From NCBI RefSeq assembly GCF_900129645.1, contig NZ_FSQZ01000001.1, forward strand, positions 1,450,001 to 1,514,000: a stretch of 64,000 bases of DNA, given 5' to 3'. Each line of letters starts with the position of its first letter. Position 1 is the stretch's first letter. The notes under the pieces are model-generated. The model had not been told where the DNA came from. It saw only the letters and a list, made by a program, of their open reading frames with translations, and did not search any database. Origin of the DNA: Acetomicrobium flavidum (GTDB lineage Bacteria; Synergistota; Synergistia; Synergistales; Acetomicrobiaceae). Shown in pieces: positions 9,395-46,748 of the stretch. The translations under genes were made by a program, and so were the position numbers.

Positions 9395-10991
9395 TAGCAT
9401 TAAAAAGTTGTTTCTTTTTGCAATCCTTCTTTTCGCAGTTATATGTGTTAATGACAGTTGTAATGCCAGCGAAAAGTGGATCCTCTGGCATGGTGTTGAA
9501 AATCTTGGCGGCGTTACGGTTTTAAATGAGGATGGACATAATTTGGTTCCCATAGATGACGTTGCAACCATGCTTAAGCTGGAGATCAACTCCGATGCAA
9601 AGCATTTTCTTGCCAAAAAGGGAAGCAATACCCTGGAATTGGTGCCGAATGCCGCAGTGGCCAAGAGGAATGGGCACGATATAGTCCCCCTGCCATTCAT
9701 TCCTGTTTATAAAGATGGCCATTGGTGGATGGAAGCGAATACGACGTTGAAAATATTGAAGCCTATTGTTAACGACGGTAAAACACTGAAGTGGGCGGGT
9801 AAGGCCAATGCATCTGCAGATAAGCCCGCTGTATCCGCTAATGAAATGACCGTTCAAAGTAGCGCTAGCACCTTTGCCGATAAGGGGAACATCAAGACTG
9901 CTGCGAGTAAGATAGTTGGGCTAAGGTGGGGTAAATGGGACGATAGAATTAGGCTTGTCATAGATTTGTCAAATAATATAACTCCTTCAGTTGATAAAAA
10001 TCCTGGGGAGTTAGTGCTAAAGTTTGATGGTGCTGTCTTAGGGGATCAAGTCAAAAATATTGAGCAGAATGCGTCATTTCCAGCTGTTTCGGTAAGCCAA
10101 AAAGATGGAGCGGCAATAATTAATATAAAACATCAGGCTGAAAAAATTGCTTATTTTAGCTTGCCCTCACCGCCTAGATATGTTGTTGACTTTTTTGGAA
10201 ATGGTAATGGCCTGAAAAATGACGTAATTGCAAAAAAAGACGATAGCAACGATGTACCCTTGCCCAGTAACCCCCAGGGCAGTTCTAATGTAACTACGTC
10301 TAGGGGGACAAAACCGCGATTGGTGGTAATAGATCCTGGTCACGGAGGGAAAGATCCTGGTGCTAGGGGCAACGGTGTTGTTGAAAAGAATATCAATCTG
10401 AGGATGGGCCAGCTCCTTGCCAATGTCCTGGAAAGTCGTGGCATTAAGACAAGAATGACACGTTCGCAGGATATATATCTGCGACTTGATGAAAGGACAA
10501 AACTTGCCAACGATTGGGATGGAGATTTATTCGTGAGCCTGCATTGCAATGCCTTGCCCGCAGGTCGAAGCGCAAAAGGGGTAGAGATTTATATAATGGC
10601 TTTACCAAGCGATAAAGATGCAATGCAATTGGCGTTGATAGAAAACAGAGAATTGGGCGAGGGGGCAGAAGATGTAAATAGCATCGCAGACAAACGGACC
10701 AAGCTTTTGCTCAAGATCTTGGGCGATATGGAGCAAAACGTGAAGATTGAACAAAGCATGTCCTTTGCGGAGGTCCTATACAAAGCTGGTAGCAATAGGG
10801 GATTAAATATGCGACGGGTAGCTCAAGCTCCCTTTTTTGTCCTTAGAGGAGCAGCTATGCCTGCAGTGCTGGTCGAGATGGGTTTTTTGACCGATAAAGC
10901 TGAGGCTTCCCTTTTGGCTAATCCAACGTATCAGAAAAAGCTTGCCGAAAGCCTGGCAGATGGTATAGAGTCATATTTGCGCAACATGTAG
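9366..10991 (+). CDS. N-acetylmuramoyl-L-alanine amidase with AMIN domain
   Basis: 541 residues, exported. Residues 1-36 form a signal peptide (KKLFLFAILLFAVICVNDS core). Next comes a copper-amine-oxidase-N-like domain (~40-130), an AMIN domain (~180-275) that would localise it to peptidoglycan, a linker, and a zinc Amidase_3 domain from ~315 with VVIDPGHGGKDPGA, SLHCNA and AVLVEMGFLTD. It cleaves the amide bond between MurNAc and the stem peptide during cell separation. The start is TTG 9366 or ATG 9372, both inside the preceding gene. It is followed by a GerMN gene, a common arrangement. Confidence 0.92.
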   Translation: MKMLQRQVYSSIKKLFLFAILLFAVICVNDSCNASEKWILWHGVENLGGVTVLNEDGHNLVPIDDVATMLKLEINSDAKHFLAKKGSNTLELVPNAAVAKRNGHDIVPLPFIPVYKDGHWWMEANTTLKILKPIVNDGKTLKWAGKANASADKPAVSANEMTVQSSASTFADKGNIKTAASKIVGLRWGKWDDRIRLVIDLSNNITPSVDKNPGELVLKFDGAVLGDQVKNIEQNASFPAVSVSQKDGAAIINIKHQAEKIAYFSLPSPPRYVVDFFGNGNGLKNDVIAKKDDSNDVPLPSNPQGSSNVTTSRGTKPRLVVIDPGHGGKDPGARGNGVVEKNINLRMGQLLANVLESRGIKTRMTRSQDIYLRLDERTKLANDWDGDLFVSLHCNALPAGRSAKGVEIYIMALPSDKDAMQLALIENRELGEGAEDVNSIADKRTKLLLKILGDMEQNVKIEQSMSFAEVLYKAGSNRGLNMRRVAQAPFFVLRGAAMPAVLVEMGFLTDKAEASLLANPTYQKKLAESLADGIESYLRNM

Positions 10992-11022
10992 GGAGATTGT
11001 TGTTTTGGAGGGATCATTTCCC

Positions 11023-11658
11023 ATGGAAAAACGCAGCGAGTTGCCGCGAAGGCGAGACAAGGAGCAAAATAAAACTCCCCAAAAAGCACCATTGCCATAT
11101 CGTATTATCGCTTGGGCTTGTTTAATTGCTATATTATTTGGGTTGGGATATTATGGGTCAGGATTAATCCTTAAACTGATCGGCAAAAAATTTAACATTT
11201 CAGGAGAGATGTCCACTCAAGTTGAGAGCACCCAGGTAGTCCCTGTCTCTAATATGCGCTACATAAATGAAGTGAAAGTCTTTTTGCCCGAAGATGGTTC
11301 CTTGAGCGTTACCGGTTATAAATTAGTGCCCGGCATAATGGAAGAAAATATTAGTGCCACCTTAGAGCAGTGGATATCGTTCATGGCTTCAAAAGGCTTT
11401 GTAGACGGAAATAGCCGTGTGCTCCATGTCTTTCGTAATGGTGAGATGTTGTATCTTGACATGAATGCATCATTTTATTCTTCTTTGCAAAAACTTGACA
11501 GAGATAGGGCTTTGCTTTTCATGACAGCCCTACTTCGCACCGTCATAGAAAATTTTGATCCAATAAAAGAAGTCAAGTTTTTAGCAGAGGGCAAAGATGC
11601 CACATTGACTAAGCCTGTTGATTTGACGGTTTCTTGGAGATTGGCACCCAAGTCATGA
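11023..11658 (+). CDS. GerMN-domain envelope protein
   Basis: About 211 residues from ATG 11023, chosen because GGAGGG (11007-11012) lies 10 bases upstream. A TTG start at 11005 would add 6 residues. A basic N-terminal tail of ~25 residues precedes one transmembrane helix (IIAWACLIAILFGLGYYGSGLIL). The rest is a GerMN (sporulation/spore germination) domain with EVKVFLPEDGSLSV and LYLDMNASFYSSL. In non-sporulating bacteria this domain accompanies amidases and is thought to act on or bind cell wall. It immediately follows the amidase gene. Confidence 0.8.
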   Translation: MEKRSELPRRRDKEQNKTPQKAPLPYRIIAWACLIAILFGLGYYGSGLILKLIGKKFNISGEMSTQVESTQVVPVSNMRYINEVKVFLPEDGSLSVTGYKLVPGIMEENISATLEQWISFMASKGFVDGNSRVLHVFRNGEMLYLDMNASFYSSLQKLDRDRALLFMTALLRTVIENFDPIKEVKFLAEGKDATLTKPVDLTVSWRLAPKS

Positions 11659-11686
11659 CATATGTATGTATGAAAGGAAACTTCAA

Positions 11687-12280
11687 TTGTCGAAGATCAA
11701 AGTTGTTTTTGCAAGTAAAAATAGGGACAAATATCTGGAGATAGTTACCCAGTTTAAGGGAACTTCCGTGGATTTAATTTTTGGCCCTGAAGTTGAACAT
11801 ATAAATGTTCAAGAGACGGGGACCTCTTACTTTGAAAACGCTTTGCTTAAAGCCCTAGCGTGGAGTAAGGCACTTCATATGCCTGCTTTGGCCGACGATA
11901 GCGGGCTTGAGGTGCCGGCCTTAGGTGGCTGGCCCGGTATTTATTCTGCCAGGATAGCAGGTGATGATGAATCTAGGATTGGCTTGGTATTGGATAGATT
12001 AAAGGGAATAAAAGATCGTGGCGCACGTTTCGTAGCCTCAATGGCCTTGGTTTTGCCCAATATGTCTCAAGTGTGGCTTACAGAGGGCATATGTTACGGG
12101 AGGATAGCTGAAACTAGAAGGGGATGTAATGGTTTTGGTTATGATCCAATCTTTATGCCTTGTGGTTGTGACAAAACTTTCGCCGAGATGGATATTGAAG
12201 AAAAAAACGGCCTGTCGCACAGGCACATCGCGATAAAAGCTCTTTGCGATATGCTTAAGAGTCAAAATGTGTTAAAATAG
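11687..12280 (+). CDS. rdgB: Non-canonical purine NTP pyrophosphatase (RdgB/HAM1)
   Basis: 197 residues. The family converts ITP, dITP and XTP to monophosphates and pyrophosphate, keeping deaminated purines out of nucleic acids. Conserved blocks are FASKNRDKYLEI at the N-terminus, ADDSGLEVPALGGWPGIYSAR and the C-terminal GFGYDPIF, EKNGLSHR. TTG 11687 is preferred because it yields the standard N-terminus (MSKIKVVFASKN) and has AAAGGAAA 6 bases upstream. ATG 11666 would add seven residues. Confidence 0.92.
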   Translation: MSKIKVVFASKNRDKYLEIVTQFKGTSVDLIFGPEVEHINVQETGTSYFENALLKALAWSKALHMPALADDSGLEVPALGGWPGIYSARIAGDDESRIGLVLDRLKGIKDRGARFVASMALVLPNMSQVWLTEGICYGRIAETRRGCNGFGYDPIFMPCGCDKTFAEMDIEEKNGLSHRHIAIKALCDMLKSQNVLK

Positions 12281-12388
12281 CTTTCCGAGTATGTCTCATG
12301 TCCGCTTGCAGGCTGTGTCAAGTCTGGCCTTTTTGTAAAAAGTAGACTGCAGATTTTAAATAATTGAACTTAATGGGAGGCACGAGGA

Positions 12389-12622
12389 ATGTTTGTGGTC
12401 ATAGCTTGCCTGCATCTTTTAGTTTCTGTGGCCTTGATGGGAGTTATAATGTTACAGCGTCGGAAACAAAGCGGCTTTGCCGGCGTCTTTGGTGGTGGGA
12501 CGCAGGCAGACATGTCCTCCGGTCAATGGCAGCGCTTATCTGGATTGAGCAAGATAACCGTTCTTTTACTATCGTTGTTCATGATTACGTCTTTAGTATT
12601 GGTGCTCATGAGCGCTAGGTGA
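12389..12622 (+). CDS. secG: Preprotein translocase subunit SecG
   Basis: 77 residues with two hydrophobic helices (VVIACLHLLVSVALMGVIML and ITVLLLSLFMITSLVLVLM) around a polar loop containing GFAGVFGGGTQ, the SecG pattern. SecG joins SecYE in the inner membrane and aids SecA-driven export. SD GGGAGG lies before ATG 12389. A 108-base gap separates it from rdgB; this gap contains a small hairpin CTTTTTgtAAAAAG but no clear terminator. The GTGA overlap with the next gene indicates coupled translation. Confidence 0.9.
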   Translation: MFVVIACLHLLVSVALMGVIMLQRRKQSGFAGVFGGGTQADMSSGQWQRLSGLSKITVLLLSLFMITSLVLVLMSAR

Positions 12623-13662
12623 TAAAAATGAAAAATATCGAATACTTTGATGATGTGACATCTTTGCAGTTGCTCCCAAGGAAGTTCTATAGCGCAAATC
12701 ATGATGAAATTATGGCCGGATATACTACCGATATTTATTTTGTGAAGACCAGAGACTTGCTCAAGGAAAACGGAAGCCTTGATGTCCCCGTCGTGGCTGA
12801 GATCTTTTCCAAGGAAGCAGGCGTCTTTGCTGGATTGCCAGAAGTGTTGTCCTTGCTCAAGGACAAAGGCGTGAAAGTGTACGCTCTTGAAGAGGGCATG
12901 TCCTTCTCGCCAAAAGAGGTAGTATGCAGAATCCATGGACCCTATGGTGCTTTTGGGATGTACGAAACCGTCATCCTGGGTTTTTTGGCAAGTTCGAGTG
13001 GATGGGCTACAGCTGCAAGGGAATGTGTTAAGGCTGCGAATGGAAAGCCTGTGTTGTGTTTCGGTGCTCGTCATGTTCATCCTGCGGTTGCGCCTGTCAT
13101 GGAAAGGGTTGCCTTGGTCGCAGGAGGTTGTACGGGCGCTAGCTGTATACTAGGAGCCAAGTTAGCCGGAGCTGAGCCCCAGGGCACCATCCCTCATGCT
13201 GCCGTGCTCATAATAGGTGATACCGTTAAGACTGCCATTTTATACGATAGCGTTTTGCCGGAGCAAGAGTCCAGAATAATATTGGTCGATACTTTCAAGG
13301 ATGAAGCGGAAGAATCACTTTTAGTGGCAAGGGCTTTAAGGAAAAAGCTTGACGGCGTGCGCCTGGATACTCCAGGTGAAAGAGGAGGGGTGTCTCCCTC
13401 TCTAGTTCAGGAGGTCCGTTGGAGGCTAGATATGGAAGGCTTTTCCCATGTTCGTATTGTAGCCTCTGGTGGTCTTAACCCAGAGAAAATAAGATTGCTT
13501 TCCCAGGCTGGTGCAGATATATTTGGCGTTGGAAGCTATATAGCCCATGCAACTCCCAGGGATATGACCATGGACCTTAAGGTCATCGATGGAACTCCTA
13601 TAGCAAAAAGGGGTAGGTTGCCCGGCATAGAGGAAAATCCTAGGCTTAAGAGGTTTCTGTAA
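12619..13662 (+). CDS. pncB: Nicotinate phosphoribosyltransferase
   Basis: 347 residues. It makes nicotinate mononucleotide from nicotinate and PRPP, a salvage route to NAD. The sequence matches the short NAPRTase class: EIMAGYTTDIYF at the N-terminus, ARHVHPA mid-protein, PQGTIPHAAVLIIGD, and the phosphate-binding strand IVASGGLNPEKI near the C-terminus. The start is GTG 12619 overlapping the secG stop, or ATG 12628. NAD salvage fits the NAD-linked hydrogenase metabolism elsewhere in the window, but no direct link is shown. Confidence 0.88.
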   Translation: MIKMKNIEYFDDVTSLQLLPRKFYSANHDEIMAGYTTDIYFVKTRDLLKENGSLDVPVVAEIFSKEAGVFAGLPEVLSLLKDKGVKVYALEEGMSFSPKEVVCRIHGPYGAFGMYETVILGFLASSSGWATAARECVKAANGKPVLCFGARHVHPAVAPVMERVALVAGGCTGASCILGAKLAGAEPQGTIPHAAVLIIGDTVKTAILYDSVLPEQESRIILVDTFKDEAEESLLVARALRKKLDGVRLDTPGERGGVSPSLVQEVRWRLDMEGFSHVRIVASGGLNPEKIRLLSQAGADIFGVGSYIAHATPRDMTMDLKVIDGTPIAKRGRLPGIEENPRLKRFL

Positions 13663-39967: not shown

Positions 39968-40141
39968 TCTCGCTCCTTCACTCCATCTAAAGTTTAAATT
40001 CTAAATTATAAACACTTCCTCATTGCCAACCAATTTTTAATTATATCATGTGGCATCCTAAATCCTACATGCCGTTCATCAGGCTCTTATGCAAGAACAT
40101 CTTTCGAGAAAAATTAATACCAATGCTTGCAATGGATATGG

Positions 40142-40160
40142 TATAGTTATTAACGTAACT
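40142..40160 (+). promoter_or_regulatory. Possible operator overlapping a -10 element
   Basis: AGTTA (40145-40149) and TAACT (40156-40160) form an inverted repeat with 6-base spacing, overlapping a -10-like TATAGT (40142-40147). The rest of the 223-base gap 39968-40190 shows only AT-rich sequence. Weak evidence, noted because it precedes the hydrogenase-linked genes. Confidence 0.25.
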
Positions 40161-40190
40161 TTGTTATCGACCTTCAGGGGGTTAAATATA

Positions 40191-40556
40191 ATGAAGATGT
40201 CCGAGATAGAGGCCATTTTGAAAGCGCGTAGACTGTTCGATACAGCGTCCATAGAAAAAGAAGTTGAATATGCCTTTGCATCGGATCTGATGAGCGATGT
40301 ACTTGCCTTTGCCCTTGCCGGCGCTCTTTTGATAACCGGTTTGACGAATATTCAAATAATCAGGACAGCTACAATGCTGGACATGACCGGGATCGTCTTT
40401 GTAAGGAATAAACGTCCCTTGGAAGAGGCAGTTACCCTTGCCAAAAAACTGGATATTCCGGTTTTGCTTTGCCAAATGAGCATGTTTGAGACTTGCGGGG
40501 TACTTTATCAGGCGGGATTAAAGCCCTGTCCTATAGTTCACGAGGAGTCGAATTAA
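40191..40556 (+). CDS. DRTGG-domain protein 1 of hydrogenase-linked cassette
   Basis: 121 residues from ATG 40191, with CAGGGGG 9 bases upstream. An ORF extension to 40089 reads through the likely promoter. It is a small alpha/beta DRTGG domain (family PF07085) of unknown biochemical role, often found next to phosphotransacetylase, CBS domains or hydrogenase regulators. Sequence features are ALAGALLITGLTNIQIIRTA and the C-terminal MFETCGVLYQAGL. It is the first gene of a tight + strand series leading into the hydrogenase operon. A second DRTGG gene with the same C-terminal pattern is at 42314. Confidence 0.78.
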   Translation: MKMSEIEAILKARRLFDTASIEKEVEYAFASDLMSDVLAFALAGALLITGLTNIQIIRTATMLDMTGIVFVRNKRPLEEAVTLAKKLDIPVLLCQMSMFETCGVLYQAGLKPCPIVHEESN

Positions 40557-40557
40557 A

Positions 40558-40992
40558 TTGAGCGAACCACTGGTTTTGGAATTACAAGTTAAGCCTCTCG
40601 ATTTTTTGGCAGCCGGCGAGACGGCAACACAATTTAAGGAAACCCTTAAGTCTTTGGGTTTGGCTCCCGAGATATGCCGGAGGGCGGCAGTTGTGGTTTA
40701 TGAAGCCGAGATGAACATAGTAATCCATGGCGGTGGTGGGGTGATGCGCCTGCAGGTCGAGGAGGACAAGGTGACCATTATGGCGGAAGATGAAGGTCCC
40801 GGAATTGAAAACCTGGAATTAGCCATGCAGGAGGGATATTCTTCAGCGCCTGACTATATAAGAGAGATGGGCTTTGGTGCAGGCATGGGATTGCCAAACA
40901 TCAAGAGAAATTCGGATGAATTATATATCGATACTGCCCCAGGGAAGGGCACTAAGCTGCGCGCGGTGATATACCTCAATAAAGGACGGTGA
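40558..40992 (+). CDS. RsbT/RsbW-like ATP-binding regulator
   Basis: 144 residues, a stand-alone GHKL ATPase domain of the anti-sigma-factor kinase type. The N-box is VVYEAEMNIVIHGGGG, the G1 box AEDEGPGIEN and the G2 region GFGAGMGLPNIKR. Such proteins phosphorylate serine residues on partner proteins or bind sigma factors. The partner here is unknown. The start is TTG 40558, one base after the DRTGG gene stop. GTGA overlap joins it to the next gene. The position between DRTGG and iron-sulfur genes suggests that one of these is its partner. Confidence 0.82.
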   Translation: MSEPLVLELQVKPLDFLAAGETATQFKETLKSLGLAPEICRRAAVVVYEAEMNIVIHGGGGVMRLQVEEDKVTIMAEDEGPGIENLELAMQEGYSSAPDYIREMGFGAGMGLPNIKRNSDELYIDTAPGKGTKLRAVIYLNKGR

Positions 40993-42317
40993 GTTTCTTG
41001 GCTCACGGGGTTAAAATAATGGAACCCTCATGCAGGGGGTGCGTAAATTGTATTAAATCGTGCCCTACAGAAGCGATGAGGGTGATAGAGGGCAAGGTGC
41101 GCATCCTGAGCGAAATTTGCATCGCTTGCGGCGAGTGCATCAGGCGGTGTCCCCATAGGGCCTTACTGTTGGAAGAAGATGAATGGGATTATGTATTGAG
41201 CAAACGTCCAATGGTGGTGGTGACAGACCCTTCCTTTTGCGCCCAGTTTTCATGGCCGCCGGTCCCCGAGCTAACGGCACAGGCGTTGTTCGAACTGGGA
41301 TTTGAACCCATATTTGATGAATATGAGGCGGCATACGATGTGACAGCCTTGGCTGAGGCGAGGGCTATATGCAGCTTGCCCGATACGGCAAAACCGCTAA
41401 TTTCGACCTATTGTCCGGCCGTAGTCCGGTTGATTCAAATTAAGTTCCATGAGCTAATACCGCATTTGGTACCTGTCGAATCTCCGTTAGAGACCAGTAT
41501 AGATTTGTGGAGAGCGCGGACAAGAAGGCGCGACCCCGTTACCCTGGTATCGTCCTGTCCGGCCCGCATTGCTATGGTGCGTTCGCCGGTAGGAAGGGAC
41601 ATAAGCTCTGCGGAGTTTGCCATTTCCACATCCAAGCTCGCTCGAGAAGTCCTGATCGGATCGGGAGATCCTTCAAAGAAGGTGACGATCAATCTTCCCC
41701 TACAGGCTCCGCGTTGGGTTGTGTGGGCAAAGACGGGTGGGGAGTCAATGCATGTACGAAACTTTTCAAGCAGGCCGATAAAGACGCTTGAAGTAGATGG
41801 CCTACGCAATGTCATTAACCTCTTTCAGGAGATGGAGCTGGGGAAGCTCAAAGGCATTGATTATGTCGAGGCCAGAGCATGCGATTTAGGGTGCATCGGT
41901 GGAATCGGCAATGCCGAATCGAGATTTTTGAGCCGCATAAAGATCGACAACATCAAGGTTTCCTTCGATATGAATGAGGAGTATCAAAATAAATTGGAGT
42001 CCATATATGAAGCTAAGATATGGTCTTTGCGGGAATGCATAGTTCCCATTGAGCAGATGCCCTTGGGAGAGGACTTGGCGAGGGCCATGGAAAGGTTAAA
42101 ACAATTGCATGCCGTTTATGCGGAACTCCCTCACCTAGATTGCGGTACTTGCGGCCGGCCTTCCTGCAGGGTTATGGCCGAGGACATAATAAGAGGAGAA
42201 GGTTCGCCTGATGACTGTATATTTAGGCTAAAGGAACGTATTGCCGATTTGTCCAAGGAAATTTATGAGCTTTCCAAGAGGCTGGTACATACGATGACTT
42301 CGGAGGGAAAATCATGA
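40989..42317 (+). CDS. Sensor-like [FeFe]-hydrogenase-related Fe-S protein
   Basis: 442 residues. Two N-terminal [4Fe-4S] sites are C15/C18/C21/C25 and C44/C47/C50/C54. The middle is an [FeFe]-hydrogenase large-subunit domain in which the four H-cluster cubane cysteines seem kept: C142 (STYCP), C190 (SSCPAR), C298 and C302 (RACDLGC). The neighbouring proton-relay cysteine of catalytic enzymes (TSCCP) is Tyr141, and the motif-2 lysine is Arg193. A C-terminal Fe-S domain has CGTCGRPSCR and a distal Cys. The design fits a redox or H2 sensor rather than a turnover enzyme. GTG 40989 overlaps the previous stop. Confidence 0.82.
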   Translation: MSFLAHGVKIMEPSCRGCVNCIKSCPTEAMRVIEGKVRILSEICIACGECIRRCPHRALLLEEDEWDYVLSKRPMVVVTDPSFCAQFSWPPVPELTAQALFELGFEPIFDEYEAAYDVTALAEARAICSLPDTAKPLISTYCPAVVRLIQIKFHELIPHLVPVESPLETSIDLWRARTRRRDPVTLVSSCPARIAMVRSPVGRDISSAEFAISTSKLAREVLIGSGDPSKKVTINLPLQAPRWVVWAKTGGESMHVRNFSSRPIKTLEVDGLRNVINLFQEMELGKLKGIDYVEARACDLGCIGGIGNAESRFLSRIKIDNIKVSFDMNEEYQNKLESIYEAKIWSLRECIVPIEQMPLGEDLARAMERLKQLHAVYAELPHLDCGTCGRPSCRVMAEDIIRGEGSPDDCIFRLKERIADLSKEIYELSKRLVHTMTSEGKS

Positions 42318-42649
42318 AGGTCAAAGAAATATGCGAGAAGTTGGGATTGACGGTTTACGTAGAGGGCAATGGAGACCAGGAAGTCGAAAGGGGGGTCGTG
42401 GGCGATCTGTTAAGCTTCATAATGAGAACCGCTCCTGATGGGGCAGTATGGGTTACCATTCAAAATCACGTCAACGTGGCAGCCGTAGCCGTATTGAAGG
42501 ATATTACGTTTGTTATATTGGCGTCGGGAAGAGAGCCCCTTCAGGAGCTCATCGACAGCTGTTCAAAGGAAAATATCACACTGGCCTCTTCGCAATTGGA
42601 CGCCTTTAAGCTATGCGGAAAGCTGTACGAGCTTGGTCTAAATAAATAA
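42314..42649 (+). CDS. DRTGG-domain protein 2 of hydrogenase-linked cassette
   Basis: 111 residues with the same fold and C-terminal pattern (DAFKLCGKLYELGL) as the DRTGG protein at 40191, so the two are paralogues flanking the ATPase and sensor-like genes. The N-terminus, MKVKEICEKLGLTVYVEG, resembles the ligand-facing part of DRTGG domains. No enzymatic motif is visible. Its ATG overlaps the previous stop by 4 bases, and the PHP gene follows after 5 bases. Confidence 0.75.
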   Translation: MKVKEICEKLGLTVYVEGNGDQEVERGVVGDLLSFIMRTAPDGAVWVTIQNHVNVAAVAVLKDITFVILASGREPLQELIDSCSKENITLASSQLDAFKLCGKLYELGLNK

Positions 42650-42654
42650 AAGAT

Positions 42655-43404
42655 ATGCAACTTTATTGGATGGATCTGCATATTCATACCGTGCTGTCTC
42701 CATGTGCAGAGCTTGAAATGGGCGCCAAGGAGATAGTCGAAAAGTGCCTAGCAGAGGGGGTAGATATAATAGCCATCTCCGATCATAATGCTACAGCAAA
42801 TTCGCTGGCCGTGATCGAAGCGGCTAAGGGTAAACCTTTAACGGTGCTGCCTGCTTTGGAGGTTCAATCGCGCGAGGACATACATACTGTCAGTTTGTTT
42901 CCTGGTTTTGAGGAAGCATCACTTTTTCAGGAGTGGGTATGGGAAAGGCTTGCTCCAATAAAAAACGATCCTGATTTATTCGGTTTTCAGATGATAATTG
43001 ATGAAGATAATAATATACTAAATGAAGTAGATACGCTTTTGATACAAGGCATAGACGCATCTGTGGATGATATCATTGAAGAAGTGAGGAGAAGGGGCGG
43101 AATGTCCATTTTAGCGCATATAGATAGGCAGGCTTATTCGTATCTGGCTGTCTTGGGAATAATTCCCCCCGATCTAAAGATCGATGCTGTGGAGTTATCG
43201 GCTAGGCTGACCTCTGAGGAGGCTCTGTTTTGGAAAAAGCAAGCTTTGAACTATACGATTATTCGATCCTCAGATGCACATCGTTTAAGCGACATAAAGA
43301 GGCAACACGCAACTGCGGTCCTTTTAAAGAGGCCTTCTTTCGACGAAATTGCCTTAGCGCTTCATTCGCAAGACAAAAGGATGGTGATGTGGCCCTGGTC
43401 GTGA
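42655..43404 (+). CDS. PHP-domain metal-dependent phosphoesterase
   Basis: 249 residues. PHP metal motifs are DLHIHTVLSPC at 7-17, ISDHNATANS near 42, SILAHIDRQAYS mid-protein and SSDAHR near the C-terminus. The second paralogue in the window, at 6116, has a different arrangement (TrpH type). The substrate is unknown; related genes accompany hydrogenase clusters in other anaerobes. It ends the cassette. An 87-base gap then leads to hydC, with no clear terminator, so read-through into the hydrogenase operon is possible. Confidence 0.8.
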   Translation: MQLYWMDLHIHTVLSPCAELEMGAKEIVEKCLAEGVDIIAISDHNATANSLAVIEAAKGKPLTVLPALEVQSREDIHTVSLFPGFEEASLFQEWVWERLAPIKNDPDLFGFQMIIDEDNNILNEVDTLLIQGIDASVDDIIEEVRRRGGMSILAHIDRQAYSYLAVLGIIPPDLKIDAVELSARLTSEEALFWKKQALNYTIIRSSDAHRLSDIKRQHATAVLLKRPSFDEIALALHSQDKRMVMWPWS

Positions 43405-43491: not shown

Positions 43492-43977
43492 ATGGTGGTG
43501 ATGATCGTGGCTTTGAGCACTGTGGATGTGGTTGAAAAGGTTAAAGAGATAGTGGCTCCATGGAAGGGCAAACAGGGAGGTTTGATCCCCATATTGCAGG
43601 AGGTCCAAAGGGAGCTCGGTTATTTGCCGGAAGAGGCGTTGCTCACGATATCTAGAGAGCTGAAAATGCCTAAGGCCGAAGTTTATGGGGTAGCTACGTT
43701 TTATGCCCAGTTTCATTTGAAGCCAAGGGGACGCCATGTCATACGGGTTTGTCGTGGGACTGCCTGTCACGTCAGGGGTAGCTTGCAGATACTCGAAAAG
43801 GTTAAGCAGATGCTTGGCATCGAAGAAAACGAGACCACTGATGACCTGCGTTTTACCCTAGAGCCGGTGGCCTGTTTGGGTGCCTGTGGCCTTGCGCCGG
43901 TCATGATGGTGGATGAGGACACCCATGGACGAATGACTCCCGACAAGATCCAGGCGATCTTGGACAAATATCAATAA
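43492..43977 (+). CDS. hydC: Bifurcating [NiFe] hydrogenase subunit HydC (NuoE-like)
   Basis: 161 residues, a thioredoxin-like [2Fe-2S] protein of the NuoE/HoxE family. The cluster ligands are in RVCRGTACHVRG (C-x4-C) and VACLGACGLAP (C-x3-C). It passes electrons within the NADH-dehydrogenase-like module with HydB. The upstream helical part (YLPEEALLTISRELKMPKAEVYGVATFYAQF) is standard. Start may be ATG 43492 or a later ATG (43498, 43501). It is the first structural gene of the hydrogenase operon. Confidence 0.93.
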   Translation: MVVMIVALSTVDVVEKVKEIVAPWKGKQGGLIPILQEVQRELGYLPEEALLTISRELKMPKAEVYGVATFYAQFHLKPRGRHVIRVCRGTACHVRGSLQILEKVKQMLGIEENETTDDLRFTLEPVACLGACGLAPVMMVDEDTHGRMTPDKIQAILDKYQ

Positions 43978-43983
43978 TTTTCT

Positions 43984-44556
43984 ATGCTTGAAGACCTTTC
44001 TCAGTATATTTTGGACATAGCCGAGAACTCGGCCAAGGCTAAAGCCCGCCAGGTTCTCGTAGAGCTTAAAATTGACAACAGCAAGAAGTTAATAGTTTTA
44101 CGTGTCTCGGATGATGGTTTCGGAATGGATGAAGATCTGTTGAAAAAGGTGGAAGATCCTTTCACTACCACTCGAAAGGAACGCAGGGTAGGTTTAGGGA
44201 TTCCCTTTTTGAAACAGGCGGCCCTTGCATGTGAGGGTTTTTTTAAAATTACATCCGAAAGAGGGAAAGGCACCATTGTCGAAGCAGGATTCAGGAAGGA
44301 TCATATTGATTGCCCACCCCTTGGAGACATAGCGTCTACGATCGCTACATTGATAATGGGGTGGCCTCAGTGCCGATGGATATTTCGTTATGAGGTCGAT
44401 GATAGATCATTCACTTTAGATCTCGCAGACTTGTTGGGATATCTAGAAGACAGAGAACTGCTTAAGTCGCCAAAGGTTGTGTTGTGGATTAAAGAATATA
44501 TTCAAGAAAATATAAGCTTGTTGCATGGGAAAGAGGGGGGCGATGGTATTGCCTAA
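43984..44556 (+). CDS. Stand-alone histidine-kinase-type ATPase domain
   Basis: 190 residues. The GHKL ATPase fold shows an N-box (YILDIAENSAKAKA), G1 (VSDDGFGMDED), an F-box-like DPFTTT and G2 (RVGLGIPFLKQA). There is no phospho-acceptor histidine helix, transmembrane segment or sensor domain. The C-terminal ~80 residues are unrecognised. It is embedded between the structural genes hydC and the small ferredoxin gene, which argues for a job tied to the hydrogenase complex, such as regulation or phosphorylation of a neighbour. That job is inferred from position only. Confidence 0.82.
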   Translation: MLEDLSQYILDIAENSAKAKARQVLVELKIDNSKKLIVLRVSDDGFGMDEDLLKKVEDPFTTTRKERRVGLGIPFLKQAALACEGFFKITSERGKGTIVEAGFRKDHIDCPPLGDIASTIATLIMGWPQCRWIFRYEVDDRSFTLDLADLLGYLEDRELLKSPKVVLWIKEYIQENISLLHGKEGGDGIA

Positions 44557-44920
44557 GATCAGAAATCTGGAGGATCTCAGGAAACTGAAAGAAGAGGCTA
44601 AGGATCTTACTTCAGCACGGTCAGGCGGTAAGAAAAAGATAATAGTGGGGATGGGTACCTGTGGGATAGCAGCAGGTGCCAGAGAAGTATTGACTGCCAT
44701 TTTAAACGAACTCGATAAGCGTGGGATTAAAGACGTAGCTGTCGAAACGACGGGTTGTATAGGTATGTGTCAGTACGAACCCCTTGTCGACATAATAAGG
44801 CCCGGGGAACCTAGAGTGACTTATGGCAACGTTAAACCTGAAGATGTGTCGCGCATTATCGCTGAGCACTTGATTAATGGCAACATCGTTTGGGAAAAAG
44901 TCATTGGAAGAACGGATTAG
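44543..44920 (+). CDS. Thioredoxin-like [2Fe-2S] ferredoxin (HndB-like)
   Basis: About 125 residues. A [2Fe-2S] thioredoxin-fold domain has GMGTCGIAAGAREV (first cysteine pair region) and TTGCIGMCQYEPLVDI (C-x3-C). It resembles HndB, the small subunit accompanying NADP-reducing hydrogenases, and the N-terminal domain of HydB. Possible starts are ATG 44525, ATG 44543 or TTG 44549; the G-rich SD (GAGGGGGG) best fits the last two. It overlaps the ATPase gene and lies 6 bases before hydB. Whether it is part of the purified hydrogenase or an accessory electron carrier cannot be told here. Confidence 0.85.
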   Translation: MVLPKIRNLEDLRKLKEEAKDLTSARSGGKKKIIVGMGTCGIAAGAREVLTAILNELDKRGIKDVAVETTGCIGMCQYEPLVDIIRPGEPRVTYGNVKPEDVSRIIAEHLINGNIVWEKVIGRTD

Positions 44921-44926
44921 GGGGAG

Positions 44927-46726
44927 TTGATCATGGCTATATATCGTGCTCATGTATTGGTTTGTAGGGGAACTGGGTGCACTGCCAGCGGCGCACCGGG
45001 CGTCATGAAAGCCTTTAAGGAAGAGTTGGCCAAGAAAGGCTTGGACAGGGAAGTCATGTTGGTTGAGACCGGTTGTCATGGCATGTGCGAAATGGGTCCG
45101 GTTGTAGTGGTATATCCCGAAGGTGCCTTTTACTGCAGGGTTACTCCGGAAGATGTGCCCGAGATAGTGGAAGAGCATCTCTATAAGGGACGCATAGTGC
45201 AACGCCTTCTTTATACCGTGCCTGAGGACATGGAAAAGGTTCCTTATTACAAGGACATTCCTTTCTATAGTAAGCAGCATCGTATTGTATTGAGCAACTG
45301 CGGATATATAGATCCCGAGAAGATCGAAGAGTACATAGCTCGAGATGGCTATATGGCATTGGGCAAGGCGCTTCTTGAGATGACCCCTGAAGAAGTTCTC
45401 GAGGAAGTCAAAAAATCAGGTTTGAGAGGAAGAGGAGGGGCAGGTTTCCCGACTGGATTGAAATGGGAATTTGCCAAAAAGGCTTCCGGCGACAAGAAAT
45501 ATGTGATATGCAATGCCGACGAAGGAGACCCTGGTGCCTTCATGGACAGGTCCACTCTCGAGGGAGATCCACATTCCGTCATAGAGGGTATGACGATCGG
45601 GGCTTATGTCATAGGGGCTGACGAGGGATACATTTACTGCAGGGCCGAATATCCTCTTGCCATAAAGAGGCTGAAAATAGCTATCGCTCAAGCAGAAGAA
45701 ATGGGGCTACTTGGCGACCATATAATGGGGACGAATTTTTCGTTCCATTTGCATCTGAAGGAAGGTGCGGGCGCATTCGTGTGCGGGGAAGAGACCGCCT
45801 TGATGGCGTCGATAGAGGGCAGACGCGGCATGCCTCGTCCAAGGCCGCCATTTCCGGCACAGCATGGCCTGTGGGGCAAGCCCACGAACATAAATAATGT
45901 CGAGACGTGGGCCAACGTTCCAAGGATTATATTGAACGGGGCAGATTGGTTTGCCTCCATGGGAACAGAAAAATCGAAGGGCACCAAGATCTTTGCCTTG
46001 ACGGGTAAAATTACCAACACCGGCCTTATCGAAGTACCAATGGGAATCACGATCCGTGAAATAATATACGAGCTTGGTGGAGGGATATTGAACGGAAAGG
46101 AATTTAAGGCCGTTCAAATCGGTGGCCCATCGGGCGGCTGTCTTACCAAGGAGCATTTGGATCTGCCGATAGATTATGAATCCCTTACTGCTGCAGGCGC
46201 CATCATGGGCTCCGGTGGTTTGGTCGTAATGGATGAGGACACCTGCATGGTTGACGTTGCCAAGTTCTTCCTCGAATTCACTCAACGCGAATCTTGTGGA
46301 AAGTGCGTTCCCTGTAGAGAGGGCACTAAACAAATGTTGTTGATGCTGCAGAAGATATGTAACGGTGAAGGCACGATGGATGACTTGAGCAAATTGGAAG
46401 AGCTGGCCCATATGGTGAAGGAGACTTCGCTTTGCGGATTGGGACAGACTGCACCTAACCCGGTAATTACGACCATCCGTTACTTCCGAGACGAATATGT
46501 AGCTCACATAAAAGACAAGCGTTGTCCAGCGAAAATTTGTCCGGCATTGATCAAGTACGTAGTGGATCCCGAAAAATGTCGAAAGTGCGGCTTATGCGCC
46601 AGGAACTGCCCAGTTAAATGCATTAGCGGCGATCGACAGACGCCATATTTGATCAACCAAGAAAAATGCATCAAATGCGGGACTTGCATGCAAGTATGCC
46701 CATTTGGTGCAATCGGAAAAGTATAA
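44927..46726 (+). CDS. hydB: Bifurcating [NiFe] hydrogenase subunit HydB (NuoF-like, FMN)
   Basis: 599 residues in three parts. Residues ~8-100 are a [2Fe-2S] thioredoxin-like domain ([21 protein letters not shown]). Residues ~130-520 are the NuoF core with the NADH/FMN site ([18 protein letters not shown]), [13 protein letters not shown] and the [4Fe-4S] site [15 protein letters not shown]. The C-terminus carries two ferredoxin clusters ([22 protein letters not shown]). The extra terminal clusters distinguish it from cyanobacterial HoxF and match HydB-type flavin-bifurcating subunits. It would exchange electrons with NAD and ferredoxin. SD GGGGGAG precedes ATG near 44933 (TTG/ATG options). 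Confidence 0.95.
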
Positions 46727-46748
46727 GCCGGCGGAGGAGGATATTGGC

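Follow-up and report, generated by a model that had tools for sequence, protein, structure and literature searches.

The window analyzed here, a stretch of 64,000 nucleotides from Acetomicrobium flavidum, carries on its forward strand a gene of the [FeFe]-hydrogenase family as the third member of a five-gene cassette, which is followed by the genes of the electron-bifurcating [NiFe] hydrogenase NiFe-HydABCSL (Table 1). The cassette runs in the order DRTGG-A, RsbW-like ATPase, putative sensor, DRTGG-B and PHP. Several of its genes overlap by a few bases, the gaps within it do not exceed 5 bases, and 87 bases separate the PHP gene from hydC; these short distances are consistent with one long operon of cassette and hyd genes. 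Consensus matches for internal promoters and terminators in the operon were no more common than in shuffled sequences.

Table 1. Genes and features of the cassette, the putative sensor and the downstream [NiFe] operon (positions in the window).
Feature	Position	Strand	Evidence
DRTGG-domain protein A, first cassette gene	40089..40556	+	Pfam DRTGG 1.4e-4, 22.1 bits, just below cut-off 25.2
RsbW/SpoIIAB-like HATPase (putative serine kinase)	40558..40992	+	HATPase_c 1.5e-8
Group D-like [FeFe]-hydrogenase-family protein (putative sensor)	40989..42317	+	GTG start, 442 aa
Two N-terminal [4Fe-4S] motifs, C15-C25 and C44-C54	41031..41150	+	Fer4 matches
H-domain, residues 74-305, cubane ligands C142, C190, C298, C302	41208..41903	+	PF02906
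D80 = CpI A230	41226..41228	+	Asp in 77/77 Synergistota-clade sequences
Y141 at relay C299 position	41409..41411	+	Tyr in 78/78 Synergistota
R193 at K358 position	41565..41567	+	K358 replaced in 15/32 maturase-less vs 0/29 maturase-containing genomes
R296 at M497 position	41874..41876	+	Arg in 79/79 Synergistota
C-terminal Fe-S domain, Cx2Cx4Cx16C (C385, C388, C393, C410)	42126..42224	+	PF04060; motif read in sequence
DRTGG-domain protein B	42314..42649	+	DRTGG 3.3e-4, 20.9 bits, below cut-off 25.2
PHP-domain phosphoesterase	42655..43404	+	PHP 5.4e-6
HydC (NuoE-like) of NiFe-HydABCSL	43492..43977	+	family match; PMC8880783
Second HATPase ('HisK' in A. mobile)	43984..44556	+	HATPase_c 8.2e-13; PMC8880783
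HydD, [2Fe-2S] thioredoxin-like	44525..44920	+	family match
HydB (NuoF-like)	44927..46726	+	family match
NiFe-type HydA (NuoG-like, without H-domain)	46704..48827	+	family match; PMC8880783
[NiFe] hydrogenase small subunit (HydS in A. mobile)	48814..49395	+	VhuG-like
[NiFe] hydrogenase large subunit HydL	49410..50843	+	VhuA-like
Hydrogenase maturation protease HydP	50850..51302	+	TIGR00072 60.8 bits, above cut-off

Pfam searches of the third gene product returned Fe_hyd_lg_C (PF02906; 4.6e-19, 69.5 bits against a cut-off of 22.1), PF04060 for the C-terminal Fe-S domain (5.3e-12) and two N-terminal Fer4 matches. The eight cysteines of the N-terminal motifs were invariant among the aligned homologues. 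The motifs STYCP, SSCPAR and RACDLGC reported in a first-pass annotation were found in this reading frame, within ISTYCP, SSCPAR and ARACDLGC. An AF2 model of the protein (pLDDT 92, pTM 0.89) aligned with solved [FeFe]-hydrogenases over approximately 270–360 residues at Z 22–31, indicating homology rather than a chance motif match, and Foldseek with the model of an orthologue led to the same families. The protein thus combines a Pfam score above the cut-off, the four cubane cysteines and the H-domain fold. It is the only Fe_hyd_lg_C protein of its genome, and no relatives were found in a search of viral contigs (viral_contigs).

By its sequence, the protein is homologous to the sensory [FeFe]-hydrogenases of group D (M2e, TamHydS-type). 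It shows the group D layout of two [4Fe-4S] motifs, an H-domain and a Cx2Cx4Cx16C motif; the PAS domain of group C is absent, and the protein ends approximately 30 residues past the C-terminal cluster (Pfam). In a quick tree from which the variable pocket columns were left out, the Synergistota proteins formed one clade (SH-aLRT 99) that was sister to the other group D sequences (95), and both together were separated from groups C and A (98). A collection scan gave homologues from Firmicutes (among them Thermoanaerobacter wiegelii), Spirochaetes, Deltaproteobacteria, Coprothermobacter, Sumerlaeota and others, which matched the query orthologue at 33–39% identity along almost the entire length. 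The kinship with HydS-type sensory enzymes proposed in the first-pass annotation therefore holds, and domain layout and tree narrow it to group D. The annotation also stated that sensory HydS types lose the relay cysteine. Group D enzymes do generally lack it, but the loss is uninformative by itself, because TamHydS of Thermoanaerobacter mathranii has no relay cysteine and is catalytically active (PMC8163306). For the same reason, we rejected the equation of relay cysteine loss with loss of activity.

The residues of the active-site pocket were mapped in an alignment of 52 group A, 11 group C and 62 non-Synergistota group D sequences. Residues D80, Y141, C142, S188 and C190 of the window protein correspond to A230, C299, C300, M353 and C355 of CpI, and R193, R296, C298 and C302 correspond to K358, M497, C499 and C503. 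K358 is the lysine that contacts cyanide. Four claims of the first-pass annotation were borne out here: the four cubane ligands are kept, these cysteines are homologous to H-cluster ligands, the relay cysteine has become tyrosine, and the motif 2 lysine has become arginine. The cubane ligand columns hold cysteine in all group D sequences that have a residue at these positions, all Synergistota included. The changes of A230 to Asp and M497 to Arg are additional to those described before, and together with C299 to Tyr they occur without exception in 77–79 Synergistota sequences, so that Tyr299 is common to the whole clade and not peculiar to the window protein. In the 62 other group D sequences, the A230 position holds A, G, S or P (mostly Ala), the C299 position mostly Ala or Ser, and the M497 position mostly Q, L, M or N (chiefly Gln or Leu), while K358 is lysine in 61. 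At the group A residues C299, M353, K358 and M497, the window protein reads Y, S, R and R, and it also carries P354S.

Several side observations were made. Among the group A HydA proteins of the fetched loci, 45 of the 51 bifurcating-type sequences read TSCSP, with serine at the position of the cubane ligand C300. Two group C-like HydS proteins (L103 and L104, genomes G024 and G025) come from genomes without HydF or HydG and have arginine for K358 (PCIAR); HydE is absent from G024 as well, and their situation parallels that of the window protein. In locus L134, one gene of group D and one of group C-like type stand in tandem (9979–11284 and 11385–13299).

In the genome check proposed in the first-pass annotation, HydE, HydF and HydG were all absent from the window genome (2.02 Mb, 99.9% complete). 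HydG and HydF were found in none of the six members of the genus Acetomicrobium searched. In the three near-complete genus genomes tested, including that of the window, no HydE was found over the cut-off, and HydG searches at a laxer setting were also empty; the best result of the HydE search in the window genome was a weak radical-SAM match of 19.8 bits. Without HydEFG, no [2Fe] subsite is made. Genomic evidence thus speaks against a functional H-cluster in this protein. Across Synergistota, the orthologue was present in 92 of 188 genomes, 42 of which lacked both HydF and HydG (26 of high quality, defined by a completeness of 90% or more and a contamination of 5% or less), and a further 58 genomes had HydF or HydG without the orthologue. 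The presence of the protein is thus not tied to the capacity for building an H-cluster. A connection with H2 metabolism persists, since all 42 maturase-less genomes contained a match to the [NiFe] large subunit.

Two other maturase patterns were noticed. In five near-complete Synergistota genomes (G108, G116, G123, G169 and G172), HydE and HydF were over the cut-off and HydG was not found; G116, G123, G169 and G172 have a clear HydA, and the Fe_hyd_lg_C matches of G108 are all weaker. These genomes may have a maturation route that does without HydG, or a HydG of divergent sequence. In the isolate Papillibacter cinnamivorans DSM 12816 (L166), HydA and a group D gene share one locus, and searches of the genome gave no HydG and no HydF above the cut-off.

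Among the 61 orthologues of known maturase status, K358 was kept in 29 of 29 from maturase-containing genomes and replaced in 15 of 32 from maturase-less genomes (Fisher p 9e-6, ignoring kinship and resting on few independent clades). P354 behaved similarly, varying in maturase-less genomes only, and Arg358 is a sub-clade trait of families f1, f9 and f10. The changes at K358 and P354, confined to few clades, would fit relaxed constraint after loss of the [2Fe] subcluster. The pattern of D80, Y141 and R296 was identical in maturase-containing Synergistota relatives, so that it is no proof of [2Fe] loss in itself. Two ideas were discarded on these data. One was that the three substitutions follow maturase loss; they are invariant in HydF/HydG genomes too, and only K358 and P354 track the loss. 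The other was that Tyr299 arose with the [NiFe] operon, which its invariance in Synergistota, HydF/HydG genomes included, contradicts. As a further caution, E252 and E289, the glutamates of the group D proton relay (TamHydS numbering), show no variation in the clade, suggesting that the [2Fe] site has been remodeled and not simply dismantled. The full relay set of group D is present in the window protein as E252, E294, T249 and D270 (E252, E289, S249 and D265 of TamHydS); elsewhere in the Synergistota clade, the positions of S249 and D265 are variable. Tyr299 and Arg497 recur together in three Bacillota group D proteins (L136, L145 and L147), which are nested within classical group D in the tree and come from genomes with HydF and HydG. 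This joint recurrence suggests that the two residues are coupled.

The genes around the putative sensor are conserved with it. Residues conserved in at least 95% of sequences include D66-L67-x-S69 of DRTGG-A (129 loci), the N-box E49/N53, D78xGxG82 and GFGAGMGL of the RsbW-like HATPase (137 loci), D31-x-L-S34 of DRTGG-B (130 loci), and the HxH, DH, E, H, H and DxH metal-site residues of the PHP protein (121 loci); a D-x-x-S motif is therefore conserved in both DRTGG proteins. The HATPase has the kinase motifs of an RsbW-type partner switch, and its best NCBIfam match was the anti-sigma F factor SpoIIAB (50 bits, below the cut-off of 135). No STAS protein, the anti-anti-sigma partner of RsbW-type kinases, was matched in the window genome by a search that was positive in 10 of 14 controls, and the SigB/F/G model gave sub-cut-off sigma-factor matches only. 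Since a STAS protein is missing from this genome, the kinase may have the DRTGG proteins as its substrates.

The order of the cassette was kept in nearly all loci across the phyla examined, except at contig ends and in a few loci without DRTGG or PHP genes. In Firmicutes, it lies mostly upstream of FeFe-HydABC, and in families f1, f9 and part of f10 upstream of NiFe-HydABCSL. Three other f10 loci (L079–L081) have the cassette, then hydC/hisK/hydD/hydB, and then a different large subunit. In L079 and L081, this subunit is a formate dehydrogenase containing selenocysteine, with the in-frame TGA at HCxxL-U-H. In a Bacillota locus (L126), the cassette is likewise followed by hydB-type genes and then by such an enzyme with its in-frame TGA. 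These arrangements suggest regulation of bifurcating formate dehydrogenases by the cassette. For most of families f2–f8, no HydABC operon was found in the fetched flanks, and the cassette is on its own. The first-pass annotation had called a position before a [NiFe] hydrogenase operon unusual. NiFe-HydABCSL is indeed encoded downstream, but the placement is not a one-off, since this operon was first described in A. mobile (PMC8880783) and the cassette also precedes FeFe-HydABC and formate dehydrogenase genes.

We propose the following model from these comparisons. The protein very probably lacks the [2Fe] subcluster. The first-pass annotation had left its signal as redox or H2; because HydE, HydF and HydG are absent, H2 binding is very unlikely and a redox signal is favored. 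Regulation by redox is fairly probable, and a [4Fe-4S] redox sensor is likelier than an H2 sensor for the adjoining [NiFe] hydrogenase. The H-domain would hold a plain four-cysteine [4Fe-4S] cubane, as an apo H-domain can do in apo-TamHydS (PMC8163306), and Nar1 provides a precedent for an H-domain protein without [2Fe] (PMC12621388). The former [2Fe] site is predicted to be a remodeled pocket with Asp80, Tyr141, Arg296 and Glu252, with two ferredoxin-type clusters and the C-terminal cluster retained. Through its [4Fe-4S] clusters, the protein would read the redox state of ferredoxin or NAD(H), not H2, and control the RsbW-like kinase. Tentatively, this kinase may phosphorylate the DRTGG proteins, the candidate phospho-acceptors, at the conserved serine of D-x-x-S, with the PHP protein as phosphatase of the relay. 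The output would tune expression or activity of NiFe-HydABCSL. As a whole, a group D-type sensor that has lost [2Fe], reads redox and signals through the cassette to NiFe-HydABCSL is the model towards which we lean by a little.

It is unlikely that the pocket holds another cofactor, such as a Nar1-like [2Fe-2S] cluster, making the protein a redox/O2 sensor or Fe-S carrier. Nar1 binds [2Fe-2S] without maturases, proposedly in the vacated cavity (PMC12621388), and the bridging cysteine (C302) is kept in the window protein; however, the Asp, Tyr and Arg that are invariant in the pocket suggest that it is filled or spanned by a polar network. An accessory of the hydrogenase with an electron-transfer or structural role would be Fe-S-rich and encoded within the hydrogenase operon, as this protein is. 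Such a role is quite unlikely, for the purified A. mobile complex contained the A, B, C, S and L subunits only (PMC8880783), the cassette stands without HydABC in the fetched flanks in most Synergistota families examined, and the protein travels with a kinase-like ATPase and usually also with PHP and DRTGG genes. Still less likely is that the protein senses H2 as an ordinary enzyme of group D, its H-cluster completed through an unrecognized maturation route. Architecture, E252/E289 relay and the four ligand cysteines match TamHydS (PMC8163306, PMC10407848), whose apo form readily takes up synthetic [2Fe] (PMC8163306); the missing maturases and the pocket altered by K358R, P354S, C299Y, A230D and M497R argue against it.

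Within the genus, the putative sensor is 84–89% identical with all cysteines kept, and its dN of 0.07–0.10 with saturated dS is similar to that of adjacent hydrogenase subunits, indicating purifying selection. Against A. hydrogeniformans, whose protein is 88% identical (L121, NZ_ACJX03000001.1), dN was 0.073 for this gene, 0.083 for hydL and 0.081 for hydA, again with saturated dS. The loss of maturases and catalytic residues might suggest that the gene is the remnant of an earlier [FeFe] hydrogenase operon in decay. This reading is scarcely credible for a gene under such selection that is kept in 42 maturase-less genomes, and it was rejected.

Group D sensors, NiFe-HydABCSL and Nar1 are already known; a maturase-independent sister clade of group D and a signaling cassette that swaps modules were not found in the open-licence literature searched. 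A probably cofactor-free clade in the same cassette offers a direct test of H2 against redox sensing in group D: should its members still act as regulators, H2 binding would be dispensable and redox sensing within the reach of the family. For the signaling route of PAS-less group D proteins, the kinase, DRTGG and PHP genes conserved in the cassette supply concrete candidates, and the exchange of downstream modules points to a regulator that serves bifurcating enzymes generally. A broader proposal, which we consider doubtful, joins these points: the cofactor-free H-domain would be a [4Fe-4S]-only redox sensor in a non-STAS partner switch (RsbW-like kinase, two DRTGG phospho-acceptors and PHP phosphatase), and the cassette a general regulator of bifurcating complexes that has been transferred as a unit among modules for [FeFe] hydrogenase, [NiFe] hydrogenase and formate dehydrogenase.

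The closest known system is TamHydS, which shares the domain layout without PAS (PMC8163306, PMC10407848, PMC13104023), the missing relay cysteine and the kept E252 and E289. Its gene lies upstream of a bifurcating HydABC operon and adjoins a histidine-kinase-like ATPase, and in T. wiegelii the homologue (L161) is part of the five-gene cassette seen in the window. Group D proteins of this type outside Synergistota, the sister clade, are approximately 30–40% identical to the window protein. The window protein differs from TamHydS at A230D, C299Y, M497R, K358R and P354S, in a genome without HydEFG and in an operon encoding a [NiFe] enzyme. TmHydS (group C/M2f) is likewise a putative sensor with a lost relay cysteine and a C-terminal [4Fe-4S] cluster, but has a PAS domain, which the window protein lacks, and lies on a separate branch of the tree. 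RsbW/SpoIIAB partner-switching kinases share the HATPase domain with N, G1 and G2 boxes; the window HATPase differs in scoring far below their equivalog cut-off and in the lack of a STAS partner in its genome. We know of no kinase cassette for yeast Nar1/CIAO3. This protein, likened here by description, also has an H-domain with the [4Fe-4S]H ligands kept and no hydrogenase maturases, but is a eukaryotic cytosolic Fe-S assembly factor with two [4Fe-4S] sites reported (PMC12621388). The downstream operon of the window encodes the same enzyme as that of A. mobile, in the order hydC-hisK-hydD-hydB-hydA-S-L-P; the accessible part of the A. mobile account deals with HydD, HydP and HisK, and not with the upstream five-gene cassette or a group D-like protein (PMC8880783).
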